In this document: one piece after another, positions 3,443-18,814 of the stretch
Layout of the letters: every line of letters starts with the position of its first letter
Position numbering within the stretch: position 1 is the first letter of the stretch
Assembly: GCF_000420245.1 (NCBI RefSeq)
Contig: NZ_ATUO01000008.1
Span: forward strand, 1-42,803
DNA from: Psychromonas hadalis ATCC BAA-638
Lineage (GTDB): Bacteria; Pseudomonadota; Gammaproteobacteria; Enterobacterales; Psychromonadaceae
Direction: 5' to 3'
DNA: 42,803 nucleotides
Position numbers and translations under genes: made by a program
Notes under the pieces: model-generated
Seen by the model: only the letters and a program-made list of their open reading frames with translations
The model's database searches: none
What the model was told of the DNA's origin: nothing

Positions 3443-3700
3443 ATGAATCCCATTATTAAAATATTAAAAGATCACCATGTTAGTGACCAGAAAATTGCAG
3501 AACTGTTTCAAACATTAACTGAAAATCCATTAGTTGCGATGACCGTTATCCCCAGCCTCGGTATTCCAGCAGAAAAATTACAGCCACTGATGATGATGGT
3601 GATGACCAATCCTGATCTGATTAAACAGGCCGTTGCAGAGCTTGGTTTAGATTTTTCAAAGGTAGAGGAAGCCCAAGCTAAATTACAAGAAAGTAAATAA
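3443..3700 (+). CDS. Small DUF2999-type protein of unknown function
   Basis: An 85-residue protein with no signal peptide or membrane segment. The sequence is helical and methionine-rich in the middle (LMMMVMTNP), then runs IKQAVAELGLDFSKVEEA at the C-terminus. This matches my recollection of DUF2999, a family found in Vibrio, Shewanella and relatives with no assigned role. ATG 3443 is chosen because AAGGAAC lies 6-12 bases upstream; the in-frame ATG-less extension back to 3413 adds residues without a ribosome binding site. The gene is convergent with pykF and shares a bidirectional terminator with it. A dispersed repeat sits between its stop and that terminator. Confidence 0.7.
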   Translation: MNPIIKILKDHHVSDQKIAELFQTLTENPLVAMTVIPSLGIPAEKLQPLMMMVMTNPDLIKQAVAELGLDFSKVEEAQAKLQESK

Positions 3701-3704
3701 TTAC

Positions 3705-3731
3705 TTGGAAGTGGGACTTTAGTCCTGCATG
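3705..3731 (+). repeat. Dispersed 27-bp repeat, copy 1
   Basis: The core GGAAGTGGGACTTTAGTCCTGC appears here and twice more at 35163-35229, in both orientations. The 27 bases here match the inverted copy at 35163-35189 exactly. The inner GGACT-TT-AGTCC can form a small hairpin. Confidence 0.75.
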
Positions 3732-3742
3732 TTTTAACAGGC

Positions 3743-3775
3743 AAAAAAAAAGCACTGCCTAAGCAGTGCTTTTTT
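3743..3775. terminator. Bidirectional terminator between the DUF2999 gene and pykF
   Basis: Stem AGCACTGC (3751-3758), loop CTAA, then GCAGTGCT (3763-3770), flanked by an 8-base A-run on the left and a T-run on the right. It therefore reads as a rho-independent terminator on both strands for the two convergent genes. Confidence 0.9.
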
Positions 3776-3795
3776 GATCTGTTGGTTATTAGTGA

Positions 3796-5205
3796 TTAAG
3801 CGATAACGTGTACAGAAGAAGTATTGGTTGTACCTGAAGCGACTAATGCACCAGAAACAATCACGACTTTATCGCCAGACTTAACCAGGCCAAGCTCTTT
3901 CGCAAGATCCATTCCTAATTTGTAGAAATCTTCGATAGTATCTTGTGGCTCGATAACTTTAGCTGATACACCTTTCGTTAATGCTAACTGTTGGCGAGTC
4001 TTAGGGTTGCTTGTTAGTGCTAAGATTTGTGCAGTTGGGAAGTATTTACGCACTGAACGTGCAGATTTACCTTCGCCAGTTGCGACGATAATAAGTTTCG
4101 CATCAAGTTGCTCAGCATTCACTACTGCGCCACTACATACCGCTTCAGTGATACGTAAGTCAGATGTCGCACACGCTGTACGTGTTGCCATAACACGGTC
4201 TGTACGTTTACAGATAGTCGCCATGATTTCAACAGCTTCTGCAGGGTATTTACCCTTAGCAGATTCACCAGAAAGCATGACTGCATCTGTACCATCAATG
4301 ATTGCATTGGCAACATCACCGGCTTCAGCACGTGTTGGGCGTGGGTTTTTGATCATTGAATCAAGCATTTGTGTTGCAGTAATAACAGGCTTACGTGCAG
4401 CATTTGCTTTTTCGATCATCATTTTTTGTGCGAAGATTACTTCTTCAACAGCAATTTCAACACCTAAGTCACCACGAGCAACCATGATGGCGTCAGAAAC
4501 AGCTAAGATTTCGTCGAAGTTATCAACACCTTCTTGGTTTTCGATTTTTGAGATGATTTGGATCTTCTCGCCACCGTTCGCGTTTAATAGCTCACGAATT
4601 TCAAGTACGTCTTCTTTCTTACGAATGAAAGATGCCGCGATGAAATCAACTTTTTGCTCACAACCAAACTTAAGGTCGCCTTTATCTTTAACAGAAAGTG
4701 CAGGAAGTTGAACTTTAACACCAGGAAGGTTAACACCTTTGTTTTCACCAAGTTCACCGGTATTCATTACTTCACAAACAACGTTTGTATCTGTGATGCT
4801 TTTAACGGTCATCTCGATTAGACCATCGTCTAATAAGATAGTGTTACCAACAGATAGGTCGTTAGTAAAGTTTTCGTATGTTACTGCTACGATGGTGTTA
4901 TCACCAACGATTGTTTGGTCTGTAGAAAGCGTGAACTCTTGACCAGCCGTTAATAATACGTCATCACCGTTGATTAATTTAACAGTGCGGATTTCAGGGC
5001 CTTTCGTATCTAATAATATCGCAACATTTTTGCCTGTTTCTTTACAGATTTCACGAATAGTTGTAATACGAGCGCCGTGCTCATTAAAGTCGCCATGAGA
5101 GAAGTTAAGGCGCATTACGTTCATGCCGTTCTCTACAAGTTTAGTTAACATCTCTTTTGATTCAGATTTTGGACCAATCGTACATACTATTTTAGTTTTT
5201 CTCAC
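3796..5205 (-). CDS. pykF: Pyruvate kinase, type I (PykF-like)
   Basis: Converts phosphoenolpyruvate and ADP to pyruvate and ATP, the last step of glycolysis in the cytoplasm. At 469 residues it matches the E. coli PykF length (470). The N-terminus [14 protein letters not shown] and [13 protein letters not shown] form the start of the barrel. The B domain covers about residues 70-170. SKIENQEG carries the catalytic lysine, ARGDLGVEI binds metal and substrate, and [11 protein letters not shown] is the family signature. The C-terminal domain (about 345-469) is the allosteric site, activated by fructose 1,6-bisphosphate in PykF enzymes. The start codon is GTG (5203-5205), preceded at good spacing by GGAGA. 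Upstream lie about 180 AT-rich bases and then an insertion sequence, which marks the far edge of its promoter region. Confidence 0.96.
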
Positions 5206-6399: not shown

Positions 6400-6703
6400 A
6401 TTATGCTTATATCAATGGAATTAATGAAGTGTTCAAGTATTGCGCAGGAAAAATTAGCACTAATAAATGCGTGAGTTGTGGCCTTTCGAGAGATTAACTA
6501 CGTTAATCCTCTCGTGGGGCATTGATTAGAAGACTTTAATGCCTTGATAGTTATTCTCACTTCACAAAATCGCATGGAACGATTTTGAACCGCTTTAGCT
6601 GACCACGCAGTGGTGAAGAACAGAGATGTTCTGAATAAAACTCACAACGCAGGTAGGGATAATTTTAACAAGTAAGACTGATCACCTTTTTGATTCCTTG
6701 GTA
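6400..6703. other. Non-coding segment rich in stem-loops
   Basis: No gene is seen in these 304 bases between the insertion sequence and degQ. Successive inverted repeats fill 6471-6645. They are a closing GTGAGTT/AACTCAC pair (6471-6477 with 6639-6645) and a long stem around CGAGAGATTAAC/GTTAATCCTCTCG (6487-6514). Then come GGCATT/AATGCC (about 6518-6546) and CTTCAC/GTGAAG (6560-6618) enclosing AAAATCG/CGATTTT and ACCAC/GTGGT. Last is AGAACA-gaga-TGTTCT (6617-6632). It could be a structured RNA or a remnant of a mobile element. Confidence 0.45.
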
Positions 6704-8044
6704 CTAGTCGAGCATTAAATAAAGATGTTGTTCACCACGTTTAATATTGAGTGCTAAGGCTGCAGGTTGTGAATCAATCATCTGTTGTAACTCGTCAATA
6801 TTATGAATTAGGGTACGATTGATGCCAATAATAATATCTGCACGTTGTAAGCCAACATGCTCTGCCATGGAACCTTGTTGTACCTGTTTAATTGTGACAC
6901 CTTGGTTGTTGGCTTTATTCGTTAACATTGCGCCAGACAACGCGGGGTGTAAAACGTGAGATGTTTGCCCTTTTGGCTGAGCCTGTGGTGGCTTAAGAGT
7001 CGCTTGTAATACGATACTTTTACCATCACGGATGATCGCCAATTTAATGGTTTTACCACTGCCTAACGTGCCGACTTTTGCGCGTAGTTCTGCAAAGCTT
7101 TTTATTTTCCGTCCATTAACCGCGGTAATAACATCCCCTGCTTTAATACCCGCCTCTTGTGCTGCACTGTCACTATTTACTTGATAAACAAATGCACCGT
7201 GTTGCGACTCTAATGCAAAACTTTTTGCTAGCTCTGCGGTTATTTCACCACCACGTACGCCTAGAATGCCACGACGAACTTCCCCGTGTTCAAGTAATTG
7301 CTCAACAATATTTTTCACCATGTTCGCGGGGATAGCGAAAGCAATGCCTATATTACCACCATTAGGGCCAAGAATAGCGGTATTAATACCAATTAATTGT
7401 CCCTGTAGATTGACCAATGCGCCACCTGAATTGCCACTATTAATGGCCGCATCGGTTTGAATGAAATTTTCAAGATTCTCAATGTTTAAGCCACTGCGGC
7501 CCAGTGCGCTAATAATACCGAGGGTAACAGTTTGTCCGAGTCCAAAAGGGTTACCGATAGCGAGTGCAAAATCACCTACACGTAATTTATCAGAGTCTGC
7601 AAAGGGCATTGCGCTGAGTGTGGTGTTTGTTTCTACCTTTAATAGCGCAATATCACTCTGTTTATCTTGCCCAATGAGTGTGGCATTTAAGATCTGTCCT
7701 GATTTAAGTTCTATCTGTATCTCATCTGCGCTATCGATAACGTGCTGATTGGTAATAATGTAACCTTTCTTTGCATCAATAATCACGCCTGAGCCTAATC
7801 CGACAAAAGGTTGTTCTGTTTGGTTTGGGCGTTGTTGGTTAAAAAATTCAAACAGATCATTCATCGGAGAGGGGGCTATCTGTTTGCCTGAAACAGAGAT
7901 ATTCACCACTGCTGGACTGACTTGCTCAACCAGTGGCGCAAGGGTTGGGCTGTCATCTAAGAAAAAAGGCAGAGCAGCGATGACTGGACTTGATAAGGAG
8001 AGGGCACTGATAAAAAGTAGCAGATAGCTCATTTTATTTTTCAT
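6704..8044 (-). CDS. degQ: Periplasmic serine endoprotease DegQ
   Basis: HtrA-family protease and chaperone that degrades misfolded envelope proteins. The 446 residues contain a signal peptide (about 1-23, cleaved near VIA-ALP) and a trypsin-like domain with the triad His101 (TNQHVID), Asp131 (QSDIALLK) and Ser206 (GNSGGAL). Two PDZ domains follow (about 260-350 and 365-446). Two PDZ domains and a short LA loop fit DegQ rather than single-PDZ DegS. The start is supported by AAGGA upstream of the ATG; a second ATG four codons later is possible. Neighbouring zapE-rplM-rpsI is the usual genomic setting of degQ. No degS is present beside it. Confidence 0.93.
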   Translation of the reverse strand: MKNKMSYLLLFISALSLSSPVIAALPFFLDDSPTLAPLVEQVSPAVVNISVSGKQIAPSPMNDLFEFFNQQRPNQTEQPFVGLGSGVIIDAKKGYIITNQHVIDSADEIQIELKSGQILNATLIGQDKQSDIALLKVETNTTLSAMPFADSDKLRVGDFALAIGNPFGLGQTVTLGIISALGRSGLNIENLENFIQTDAAINSGNSGGALVNLQGQLIGINTAILGPNGGNIGIAFAIPANMVKNIVEQLLEHGEVRRGILGVRGGEITAELAKSFALESQHGAFVYQVNSDSAAQEAGIKAGDVITAVNGRKIKSFAELRAKVGTLGSGKTIKLAIIRDGKSIVLQATLKPPQAQPKGQTSHVLHPALSGAMLTNKANNQGVTIKQVQQGSMAEHVGLQRADIIIGINRTLIHNIDELQQMIDSQPAALALNIKRGEQHLYLMLD

Positions 8045-15488: not shown

Positions 15489-15516
15489 AAAAAACCTAGC
15501 TAAGCTAGGTTTTTTT
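15489..15516. terminator. Bidirectional terminator after sspB
   Basis: CCTAGC (15495-15500), loop TAA, GCTAGG (15504-15509), flanked by six A and seven T. It can serve sspB on the plus strand and the ATP-grasp gene on the minus strand. Confidence 0.88.
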
Positions 15517-15566: not shown

Positions 15567-16517
15567 CTATTTTTTTGAAAAATGCTTTTTACAAAACTCA
15601 ATACGCTCTTCAACACTCATGTTGTGATCGTCACCTAAACTTTCAACCAACTTAAGACGTGGTAAGATCCCCTGTCCATTCGCTATTTGAATAGCCAGTC
15701 CTGGGCGCGCATTAAGTTCTAATAACATCGGCCCTAAATCACGATCTAGTACCATATCTGTGCCTAAATAACCCATACCAGACATCTCATAACAGCTCGA
15801 GGCTAAATAGATAAGGCGTTCCCATTTAGGCACTTGCAGTAGTGCGAGTTCTTTACCTGTATCAGGGTGATATTTAACAGGTTTATCAAACTGTACCGCG
15901 TTGATAGCCGCACCTGTTGCAATATCAATACCGACACCAACAGCGCCTTGGTGTAAGTTTGCTTTACCGTCCGATACAGCCGTTGAAAGACGCATCATTG
16001 CCATCACTGGGAAGCCTTTAAAAACAATAACACGTACGTCTGGTACACCCTCAAAGCTGAAACCATCAAAGGCACTATCAAATTGAATGAGTCCTTCTAC
16101 AACAGCGACATCTGCACTGCCACCTAAGCTAAATAGTCCCGCAAGAATGTCCGTGATATGGCGTTTTGTTTCATCAAGTGAAACTTCGTCGCCATTCGGT
16201 TTATAATAACGACCTTTCTCAACTTTAGTGATCACTAAAATACCTTTACCACCGCTACCTTTGGCGGGTTTAATCACAAACCCTGGGGTATCTTTAATAT
16301 ACTGTTCAATACCCGCTACTTCCGCTTGTATGGAAATCACACCCAGCAGAGCGGGGGTCGTTACGTTTGCTTCGCGGGCAATGATTTTAGTTTTAAGTTT
16401 ATTGTCGACCAAAGGGTAGAGTTTACGTGGATTATAGCGACCAATGTAACCACTGTTGCGTTGGTTCATGCCCATAATACCTTTGCTTTTTAACTTAAAC
16501 GGACTGGCAAAAAACAT
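15567..16517 (-). CDS. RimK-like ATP-grasp ligase of a 7TM/retropepsin cassette
   Basis: ATP-grasp protein of 316 residues, usually labelled alpha-L-glutamate ligase-like. The glycine-rich nucleotide loop is FVIKPAKGSGGKGI (about 80-93). The ATP-grasp core shows DVRVIVFKGFPVMAMMRLS and the metal-binding LLELNARPGL (about 277-286). Such enzymes join a carboxylate to an amine via an acyl-phosphate; the actual substrate here is unknown. No signal peptide, so cytoplasmic. It is the last gene of a three-gene minus-strand unit, 3 bases after the membrane gene, with its AAGGAA ribosome binding site overlapping the preceding stop. Close packing implies a shared task. Confidence 0.85.
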   Translation of the reverse strand: MFFASPFKLKSKGIMGMNQRNSGYIGRYNPRKLYPLVDNKLKTKIIAREANVTTPALLGVISIQAEVAGIEQYIKDTPGFVIKPAKGSGGKGILVITKVEKGRYYKPNGDEVSLDETKRHITDILAGLFSLGGSADVAVVEGLIQFDSAFDGFSFEGVPDVRVIVFKGFPVMAMMRLSTAVSDGKANLHQGAVGVGIDIATGAAINAVQFDKPVKYHPDTGKELALLQVPKWERLIYLASSCYEMSGMGYLGTDMVLDRDLGPMLLELNARPGLAIQIANGQGILPRLKLVESLGDDHNMSVEERIEFCKKHFSKK

Positions 16518-16520
16518 AGT

Positions 16521-18047
16521 TTATTCCTTATCGGCCAAAGGTTTAAAGCGACGTAATTCAAGTAATCGGTAACCTGTGTAACTGCCGAGTAATAATACCA
16601 ATGACATCACCACAAATTGTAAGCCGATAAAGTTAAACATTAAATGACGTGTCACATCGTTGCTCATTGCAAAGTAAGCTAATACTGCTACTAATAAACT
16701 GCCACCACCTTGTGTGAATACCTCTTTCGCGCCCTCCTCTTCCCATAAAACTGACATACGTTCAATGGTCCAAGAAAGAATAATCATAGGAAAAAAGGTG
16801 ATTTTAAGTCCTTCAGTTAAACCCAATTTATATGAAAGTACGCCAAATAGTGCAATCAGCAGAATAACCATGATGATCACCGTGGATATTCGTGAGACCA
16901 GCAGTAGATTGAGGTGTGAGAGATAAGAACGAATAATCAAACCAATACCCACAAGCAGTATAAAACCAATGAGGCCCGTAATGAGGCTAGTTTGAATAAA
17001 TGCCATGGCGATTAATACCGGCATAAATGTACCCGATGTTTTTAGCCCAATTAATACGCGCATCATCACTACAATCAATACGCCTAATGGGATCATTAAG
17101 ATACCTTTAAATAGCGATTGATCTTCCACGGGTAAGCTATGAATTGAGAAATTAAACAGGTGCTCATTTTCAGATTTTTGTAATAGTGCTGAAAGTGCAG
17201 GTTGCTCTTGCTGAATCATCGAGAAGCTGACTCTAGAGTCGCTACCGCCTGTTAGCTCTAGTAATGCTTTGCCACTTTGATCCCATAACAGTAAATTATC
17301 GCGGTTTACAGACTCTAACGTATTTGCATCAAACAGGCGCGAGCTAATCACACCCTCTTTTTCTTGGAAAACTTCCACTAGGGGTTGTAAATGTTGGCGA
17401 CGACGGCCATCTTCGAGTGTTAAGGCTCCAATTCTTTTAGTGTGTATATCTGCTCCGTTTAACAGTGCAATCAGGATCGCTGTTTTACTGACTTTTTCGG
17501 TTAAAATAAGACTGATATTTTGATTGGGTGTTTCAGCATTAAGCTGTTTTAGTAGTTCACGTGCAAAGCTAAATGCATCTGCACTGGTTTTAAGTGCATC
17601 TTTAATAATCGTTTTACCCGCTGCCAGTTCCGCGGCACTATACTCTTTATCAAAAAGCGGTGGCATTTCAAGGATTTGTGGGTCCAAGCTTTTTGGATCT
17701 TCAAGTACCTGAATGTTGTAATAGAGCGTTTGTTTACCCGCTGCTTCACGAATGGTCCATTCCGCTTTTGGGGTCAAGCCATCATCTAAAAATGAAAGTC
17801 CATAACCTGGAGAGGCAGCATTTTGACTGATTGTTGTAAATCCAGCTTGGCGCTCAGGGGTGGTGAGTGAGGCAATAATAGCATTGTCGTGAGCATTGAA
17901 ATTGATTTTTGCATCAATGTTCCAGATGGTACGTGTTTCCCCCGGCATCCATGGAATATCAAACGCAACGTGACGTTGTACTGTTTGGAATATGCCCAGT
18001 GACATTAAACCTGCCACTAGCACAAAGAAGAAAATACGTGCGTTCAT
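16521..18047 (-). CDS. Inactive transglutaminase fused to seven membrane helices
   Basis: Membrane protein of 508 residues. An N-terminal anchor (about 5-21) leads to a periplasmic region of about 250 residues, including a degenerate transglutaminase-like part. Where the catalytic cysteine would lie the sequence reads EKVSKTAILIALLNGAD, and the histidine strand survives as RRQHLQPLVEVF. About seven helices follow (roughly 313-495), ending with the cytosolic LELRRFKPLADKE. This is the architecture of Pfam families for inactive transglutaminase with 7TM. I infer a receptor or channel role linking a periplasmic substrate to the cytoplasmic ligase. It starts 35 bases after the retropepsin gene. 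Confidence 0.85.
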   Translation of the reverse strand: MNARIFFFVLVAGLMSLGIFQTVQRHVAFDIPWMPGETRTIWNIDAKINFNAHDNAIIASLTTPERQAGFTTISQNAASPGYGLSFLDDGLTPKAEWTIREAAGKQTLYYNIQVLEDPKSLDPQILEMPPLFDKEYSAAELAAGKTIIKDALKTSADAFSFARELLKQLNAETPNQNISLILTEKVSKTAILIALLNGADIHTKRIGALTLEDGRRRQHLQPLVEVFQEKEGVISSRLFDANTLESVNRDNLLLWDQSGKALLELTGGSDSRVSFSMIQQEQPALSALLQKSENEHLFNFSIHSLPVEDQSLFKGILMIPLGVLIVVMMRVLIGLKTSGTFMPVLIAMAFIQTSLITGLIGFILLVGIGLIIRSYLSHLNLLLVSRISTVIIMVILLIALFGVLSYKLGLTEGLKITFFPMIILSWTIERMSVLWEEEGAKEVFTQGGGSLLVAVLAYFAMSNDVTRHLMFNFIGLQFVVMSLVLLLGSYTGYRLLELRRFKPLADKE

Positions 18048-18082
18048 AAATTTTCCCTATTATCTATTTTATTGTTATTTTA

Positions 18083-18814
18083 TTATTGTTTTTTAGGTGC
18101 TTGATGTTTTTCAAAAATGTACTCTTTACTGACATCAACCAACACAACATCTTGCATAAAAGTACGTCCAATTAATACGGGGTATTCCATGTGTAAGCGG
18201 CTGGTTAACGTAAATTCTGTTAGATGCGCAACATCACCGATGCGCACGTGTAATTTAACCACTGGGCGCTCTGTTTCAACGCCAGGTTTACTTGATTGAG
18301 TGATTTTTGCAATACGCACAATTTTAGCTTCAATCATTTCCGCTTTATTACCTTTAGCATGGGTTAAGTTAAAACGTACCCATTTTTCACCATCACGCTC
18401 AAAGCGCTCAATATCAACGGCATTGAGCGATGAAGTTGCCGCACCTGTATCAATGCGCCCTTTGAAGTTTTCTTTTACGGTTGATACATAAACCCACTCA
18501 GATTGACCAAGGATAGTTTTATCATCTATATGTGTTACTTTTGGGTTTTTTATCGCTTTAGTTGTTTTTGCCATTTTTTGGCTCTTCTCTAATGCCATAC
18601 TCAATTTGATGATTTTTTCTTCACTGATTTTTAAGGCCATATTGGCACTGTCTAATTCATTTTTAGTTTGTGTTGTTAAGGTTTTTGATGCCACTAGAGA
18701 ACTTTCTAAGTTGGTGATCTTAGCGAGCTGCTCTGTGTCATTCGTTGTTGTTACACAGCCCGTCACTGCAATGACAGTAAATGCAGTGAGCAGTGTTTTT
18801 TTAGTTAAAAACAT
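18083..18814 (-). CDS. Retropepsin-like aspartic protease lipoprotein
   Basis: The 243 residues start with a lipoprotein signal (VTGC, Cys20), followed by a probable coiled coil (about 27-85). A C-terminal domain (about 95-243) carries the retropepsin active site RIDTGAATSSLNA (Asp122) and the closing YPVLIGRTFMQDVV. This Pfam family is often called ATP-dependent zinc protease, yet no zinc HExxH is present and the DTG motif argues for an aspartic protease acting in the periplasm, probably as a dimer. It is the first gene of the cassette; AAGGGA precedes the ATG. Lipid anchoring plus coiled coil suggests attachment to a membrane and spacing from it. Confidence 0.85.
   Translation of the reverse strand: MFLTKKTLLTAFTVIAVTGCVTTTNDTEQLAKITNLESSLVASKTLTTQTKNELDSANMALKISEEKIIKLSMALEKSQKMAKTTKAIKNPKVTHIDDKTILGQSEWVYVSTVKENFKGRIDTGAATSSLNAVDIERFERDGEKWVRFNLTHAKGNKAEMIEAKIVRIAKITQSSKPGVETERPVVKLHVRIGDVAHLTEFTLTSRLHMEYPVLIGRTFMQDVVLVDVSKEYIFEKHQAPKKQ

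Follow-up and report, generated by a model that had tools for sequence, protein, structure and literature searches.

Three adjacent minus-strand genes on a contig of Psychromonas hadalis ATCC BAA-638 (NZ_ATUO01000008.1; the whole 42,803-nucleotide stretch analysed is hereafter called the window) encode a lipoprotein retropepsin (RloA), a transglutaminase-type membrane protein with a seven-transmembrane (7TM) part (RloB) and an ATP-grasp ligase (RloC). The trio is an rloABC operon, of firm membership, and a further example of the operon described for Pseudomonas aeruginosa in 2025 (PMC12239564). We propose that a glutamate-type chain, made and exported by RloC and RloB together, is trimmed in the periplasm by RloA, a reading to which we give about even odds (roughly 0.5). 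Comparison across genomes adds three things to the published picture: a constant coupling of RloB to the ligase, fusions of the two proteins, and a sister form without RloA, in which RloB has a live-looking transglutaminase and is accompanied by a TPR protein and an outer-membrane barrel.

An earlier note on this DNA, made from the letters alone, had read the three genes, their coordinates, families and motifs correctly; the open reading frames are exact and the Pfam and TIGRFAM matches agree. Its statement that the families have no settled function is outdated, as phenotypes of rloABC and polyglutamate as a candidate substrate have since been published (PMC12239564).

Conserved coupling of RloB and the ligase

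RloA, RloB and RloC were adjacent in 80/80 loci from named genomes, a set made up of the best matches to the window and therefore biased towards its form. The order is A-B-C, exactly so in 78; one of the two remaining loci (L124) has an extra RloA and the other (L127) a broken rloC. In this second locus, on a contig of Vibrio aestivus, rloC is split over two frames (6510-7498), through a sequencing error or a real break. Across the loci of relatives, RloA lies upstream of RloB in 28/29 and RloC downstream in 29/29.

The same picture emerges from whole genomes. PF14402, the RloB membrane domain, is present in 48 of 299 sampled genomes of the phylum and in 21/24 sampled genomes of the genus, the window's included. 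In all 48, comparison of coordinates places a TIGR02291 match (the RloC family) beside it on the same contig, within ~0.5 kb. PF05618, the retropepsin family, is found in 44/48 genomes with PF14402 versus 54/251 of the others. The coupling extends to a single polypeptide in two loci, L046 (6234-8657; 807 amino acids) and L229 (6475-8991; 838 amino acids), where RloB, with a live-type transglutaminase plus the 7TM part, is joined to RloC. The earlier proposal that the three families recur together is thus upheld, by the 80/80 loci and by the RloB-RloC pairs of all 48 genomes.

Three forms of RloB

We collected 166 distinct RloB proteins by targeted searches, which do not give an even sample of loci. 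Without five truncated copies (L001, L084-L087), 161 remain, of which 14 carry a live and 147 a dead transglutaminase domain. The call rests on the pattern C-x-x-K/R ... H-x-W; residues rather than Pfam matches define a live domain because PF01841, the model of active transglutaminases, also matches dead members (12/22 alignment rows, plus form III). At the third catalytic position, 13 of the 14 live proteins have Asp and L046 has Gly.

Form I, to which the window belongs, has a dead transglutaminase with RloA upstream and RloC downstream. A retropepsin lies near dead-transglutaminase RloB in 143/147 cases, 141 of them by an RloA-profile match within 5 kb and two (L076, L081), whose upstream DNA lay beyond the sequence analysed, by adjoining PF05618 matches (G079, G347); the other four (L017, L068, L097, L235) have no RloA-profile match within that distance.

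Form II (L092-L096, L222-L229, L046) keeps both Cys and His, with RloC downstream or fused, and RloA was found within 5 kb in 0/14 loci. On the RloC side, an outer-membrane barrel of one family is present in 12/14; of the other two loci, L096 reaches the contig end and L229 has no barrel in the available DNA. The gene between RloC and the barrel encodes a TPR protein, and Pfam found the repeats in 9/9 of those scanned. The 14 belong to genomes of seven sampled families (f4, f51, f119, f149, f156, f184 and f244). No match to PF05618 occurs in eight of these genomes, some of which are incomplete (G026, G115, G189, G224, G324, G414, G533, G636); each of the remaining six has it once or twice, always on a different contig. 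Two genomes (G377, G633) carry form II alongside a form I or III copy. A polysaccharide identity of the barrel was considered and rejected: EpsL matched 3/12 barrels, all far under the cut-off, and the remainder either have no match or are spread among SlipAM, MtrB/PioB, OMP_b-brl and Omp85. We therefore keep the label of a beta-barrel.

Form III (L230-L236) again has a dead transglutaminase, with RimB-like retropepsins within 5 kb in 6/7 loci and RimK-like ligases in 3/7. Family scans, which covered some of the neighbours, also found an AstE/AspA-type hydrolase (L231, L232), an MscS channel (L231, L236) and a Mg2+ transporter, CorA or MgtE (L231, L233, L234). Two loci of family f57 (L097, L098) have a short RloB without transglutaminase; the gene before it is taken for a barrel on a weak OMP_b-brl match (E 0.018 for L097).

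In a tree of 33 RloB membrane domains, chosen from the 161 at 72% identity, forms II and III each fall on one side of a branch, with support of 98/93 and 100/100.

Features of the three proteins

RloA of the window matches PF05618 at 2.9e-41, and its solved relatives by phmmer are 9g59 (1e-20), 9g58 and 2pma. Its sequence contains no HExxH zinc motif. The position of the active-site Asp122, the family match and the kinship with 9g59 all agree with the earlier view that the first gene encodes an aspartic rather than a zinc protease. Comparing metal dependence with pepstatin-type inhibition, as had been suggested as a check, would mislead for RloA, because the homologue RimB resists pepstatin A and chelators yet needs its Asp31 (PMC11957791).

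Judged by eye from the sequence, a long helical stalk separates the lipobox from the protease domain. The residue following the lipobox Cys governs the membrane placement of a lipoprotein, and from this residue RloA would sit at the outer membrane. The lipobox Cys is the only cysteine of the protein, which thus lacks the Cys pair reported for periplasmic RloA orthologues; single-Cys RloA is also common among the 80 loci. Scores against the NCBIfam models fall below their cut-offs (RloA2 108/250, RloA3 106/210 and RloA 94.5/280 bits; for RloB, 296.5 of 900 bits). Three of the four kinds of NCBIfam RloA/RloB model are 'exception' models, and neither the cut-offs nor the Cys pair was taken as defining membership. 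By our reading of the alignment, the basic residues K46, R92, R114 and R137, to which PMC12239564 assigns the binding of polyglutamate, correspond to R120, R167, R183 and R206 of the window.

RloC matches TIGR02291 at 466 bits, over the cut-off of 314, as well as PF14397, and contains the ATP-grasp stretches KPAKGSGGKG and LELNARPG. In its predicted structure (predicted local distance difference test, pLDDT, 89.9), the nearest folds are ArgX (3vpb; Z 17.8, root mean square deviation (rmsd) 2.8, 215 aligned), RimK (5zct; Z 16.8, rmsd 3.3, 217 aligned) and cyanophycin synthetase (7wae; Z 16.1, rmsd 3.1, 218 aligned). Further ATP-grasp ligases, D-Ala-D-Ala ligase included, follow at Z ~15. Matches within one Z unit are treated as ties, and a fold match proves no substrate. 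The pre-ATP-grasp domain of RimK (PF18030) is not among the RloC matches; it is present in the true RimK of the form III locus L232.

RloB matches PF14400 and PF14402 (3.4e-110). It contains no cysteine at all and so lacks the catalytic Cys of an active transglutaminase, just as the earlier note had said. The predicted structure has a pLDDT of 81.7. Its periplasmic part resembles 3isr, a transglutaminase-like putative cysteine protease (Z 14.1, rmsd 3.9, 216 aligned), and TgpA (6g49; Z 6.9, rmsd 4.2, 168 aligned). A search of the PDB by sequence with the RloB profile gave nothing below E 0.18, with TgpA (6g49) at 0.25. Six residues of the membrane domain (R330, G334, G339, F341, P420 and R430) show a conservation of 1.00 across the 161 relatives.

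A proposed model of synthesis, export and trimming

In P. aeruginosa, cells that lack all three secreted RloA proteases fail to grow unless salt is present, a defect that sucrose eases (PMC12239564). If rloB or rloC is deleted from the triple protease mutant, growth returns and the other traits recover in part; the rlo phenotypes include cell shape, biofilm and the response to cell-wall antibiotics (beta-lactam tolerance). RloA cleaves polyglutamate and needs its catalytic Asp48, the D48A variant failing to complement. The authors were unable to identify the substrate and leave polyglutamylated proteins or free polyglutamate as options. The cytosolic homologue RimB, which needs Asp31 and resists ethylenediaminetetraacetic acid (EDTA), phenanthroline, phenylmethylsulfonyl fluoride (PMSF) and pepstatin A, lets RimK make poly-alpha-L-glutamate (PMC11957791). 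In Shewanella, disruption of an 'inactive transglutaminase' gene led to more vesicles (PMC12096838). Among titles and abstracts, mainly of openly accessible literature, we recognised no paper on the rlo product or on the contexts of forms II and III.

In the pathway that we propose, cytoplasmic RloC would link glutamate, or an amino acid like it, into a chain that the membrane domain of RloB would carry across the inner membrane; the dead transglutaminase domain may hold or guide the chain on the periplasmic side. Lipid-anchored RloA would then cut the periplasmic chain, so that the polyanion does not accumulate. If RloA is lost, the polyanion would accumulate and the cell would fail in low salt, which sucrose would ease and a block of synthesis or export would cure. 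The published epistasis would thereby be explained. The live transglutaminase-fold domain of form II may trim or attach the chain in cis, and the TPR-barrel pair may carry it to the surface. Three points are inferred: RloC as the enzyme that polymerises glutamate, RloB as the exporter, and a free chain rather than a modified protein as the product. A ligase and a periplasmic protease acting together across the inner membrane had been part of the earlier note, which was right in this outline.

More broadly, RloB-RloC could lie at the heart of a new family of machines, driven by ATP-grasp enzymes, that build a glutamate-type chain in the cytoplasm of Proteobacteria and move it over the inner membrane. 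One version would export to the surface (live transglutaminase, TPR, barrel); the other would be periplasmic (dead transglutaminase, retropepsin trimming) and would tune periplasmic osmotic pressure. We offer this wider generalisation tentatively, with odds clearly short of even.

Several observations weigh against the export-and-trimming pathway. The polymer itself has not been seen so far, and single rloB and rloC mutants of P. aeruginosa have milder defects of their own (PMC12239564). Structure comparison of the RloB membrane domain revealed no transport fold, its matches (Z <=7.0, mostly AcrB-type pumps) being uninformative, and the form II barrels match no single export family. In 4/7 form III loci, of which one reaches a contig end, no ligase was found within 5 kb of RloB. 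In a small Psychromonas-group genome, G004 (L049 5627-9728), the rloB and rloC frames are whole, but rloA and the MATE gene are absent from their usual place and the lnt-like gene overlaps the start of rloB; PF05618 was not found in this genome, which is 79% complete. In two further loci, L129 (Marinagarivorans, 3618-4451) and L170 (Cellvibrionaceae, 4069-4998), RloA has an altered DTG motif while rloB and rloC are kept. Their genomes have two PF05618 places each, of which one looks cytosolic by reading and the second is presumably the altered RloA itself. Finally, the live or dead state of the transglutaminase is one change on the tree. The contrast in the presence of RloA between live and dead forms (0/14 vs 143/147) may therefore be a single event, and we treat it as a lead rather than as statistical proof.

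A kinship of the RloB membrane domain with CapC/PgsC, suspected by eye, would have favoured export and was not supported. PF14102 matched 0/22 RloB rows at E up to 10, within the HMMER filters. The hhalign probabilities of RloB against CapC were 9.6, 0.4 and 1.3%, a result that is weak either way because the CapC profiles, drawn from five genomes, are shallow and even the two CapC repeats match one another at only 71%. In HMMER searches made in both directions, L046 ranked directly below the CapC proteins with one CapC profile, at a non-significant E of 0.26, and a PDB sequence search with the two-domain CapC protein matched zero chains. A PF14102 match in G265 was dropped, as it overlies a frame read as heme A synthase-like. 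The proteins with two CapC domains are ~1080 amino acids long and occur in five genomes of family f51 (for example L043 4487-7726 and L044 3686-6937); in L043 the gene is followed by a long frame of >750 amino acids.

The same glutamate chemistry could instead serve a reversible envelope modification, in which RloC and RloB add glutamate tails to an envelope protein or peptidoglycan precursor and RloA removes them. RimK modifies the protein RpsF and RimB trims it (PMC11957791), the shape, biofilm and cell-wall antibiotic phenotypes of P. aeruginosa point to the wall, and polyglutamylated proteins are one option of the authors of that work (PMC12239564). That the substrate is a tailed protein or muropeptide rather than a free chain is quite possible. 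A tailed protein would, however, need export after its modification, with RloC in the cytoplasm and RloA in the periplasm, and the TPR protein and outer-membrane barrel that form II has of its own look more like export of a bulk product. We regard the tailing scheme as less probable than the free chain. A role in Slam-like export or modification of a surface lipoprotein, with the glutamate link a side matter, draws on TPR_Slam (PF24575), which scores over the cut-off in 9/9 TPR proteins scanned, and on weak SlipAM matches in 2/12 barrels (E 0.009 and 0.043). TPR models cross-match widely, though, the barrels scatter over several families with most matching none, and the window's own form has no TPR or barrel genes alongside. 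The cleavage of polyglutamate by RloA would also be left unexplained. We consider this role improbable.

The earlier note had suggested a sensing and modification circuit across the inner membrane, in which the 7TM protein senses a peptide, the ligase makes an amide-linked modification and the protease processes a periplasmic target. In such a circuit, RloB would detect the peptide in the periplasm and relay the signal to RloC. The topology permits this, with a periplasmic domain, membrane helices and a cytoplasmic ligase. Family scans found no signalling domain in the trio, evidence which does not test sensing directly, and loss of rloB and loss of rloC give the same cure (PMC12239564), as expected within one synthesis route. 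The failure to find any sensor-type feature and the company that RloB keeps with the ligase (48/48 genomes, fusions) leave the sensor role unsupported, although this too is not a direct test, and the barrel of form II fits export. We consider sensing the least probable of these explanations. Synthesis and export of a chain fit better than sensing both with the RloB-ligase coupling and with the TPR and barrel genes of form II.

The locus in Psychromonas hadalis

The genes are tightly packed (Table 1), with gaps of 35 bases between rloA and rloB and 3 bases between rloB and rloC. Downstream, between the convergent rloC and an sspB-like gene, lies a palindrome with T-runs on both sides, a possible terminator that the two genes may share; it is absent from the output of the promoter and terminator pattern scan of the operon. 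The same scan gave 8 promoter-like sites in the operon versus 9.9 expected, which is uninformative. The genome has one PF05618 gene, rloA itself, and one match to PF08443 (RimK family; 8.6e-11) on a different contig, in a scan that did not pick up RloC itself, so that weak members can escape it.

Table 1. Positions of the rlo genes, their motifs and domains, and the adjoining palindrome in the window
Feature	Position	Strand	Description or basis
rloA	18083..18814	minus	lipoprotein retropepsin, 243 amino acids
RloA lipobox Cys20 (VTGC)	18755..18757	minus	sequence
RloA DTGA active-site motif, Asp122 to Ala125 (within DTGAATS)	18440..18451	minus	aligned with DTG of 9g59 and 2pma
rloB	16521..18047	minus	transglutaminase-7TM membrane protein, 508 amino acids, without cysteine
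RloB periplasmic transglutaminase-fold domain without catalytic Cys, residues ~25-283	17199..17975	minus	PF14400; 3isr, 6g49
RloB membrane domain, residues ~305-505	16533..17135	minus	PF14402
rloC	15567..16517	minus	ATP-grasp ligase, RimK-related kind, 316 amino acids
RloC ExNxR motif of ATP-grasp site (E267-R271)	15705..15719	minus	invariant in 30 rows of RloC alignment
Palindrome with T-runs on both sides	15489..15516	no strand	read by eye

Comparison with known systems

The comparison offers a concrete, testable product for the rlo operon, a glutamate-type chain exported through RloB, in an organism whose single PF05618 gene means that redundancy should not mask a phenotype. If the proposal is true, a retropepsin replacing a dead cysteine-enzyme domain would be a neat case of enzyme replacement.

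The rloABC operon of P. aeruginosa has the same three families in the same order, namely a secreted DTGA retropepsin, a cysteine-less transglutaminase-7TM protein and a RimK-related ATP-grasp ligase. It differs in RloA, which in the window carries a long helical stalk and no cysteine beyond that of the lipobox, hence no disulfide pair, and in that P. aeruginosa has three RloA proteins where the genome of the window has one PF05618 gene. RimB-RimK (the RimABK system; PMC11957791) shares a homologous retropepsin, an ATP-grasp ligase of like fold and polyglutamate as product and substrate. In contrast to cytosolic RimB, the protease of the window has a lipobox; its ligase has no match to the N-terminal domain of RimK, and a membrane protein is encoded between the two.

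If our model is right, the poly-gamma-glutamate systems PgsBCA/CapBCA follow the same logic of a ligase, a membrane partner and a trimming hydrolase. They differ in the ligase, which is Mur-ligase-like in PgsBCA/CapBCA and of the ATP-grasp type in the window, and sequence searches detected no kinship between RloB and CapC. Cyanophycin synthetase and the ArgX/LysX ligases have an ATP-grasp fold close to the one predicted for RloC; to our knowledge, these are soluble systems without an RloB partner.

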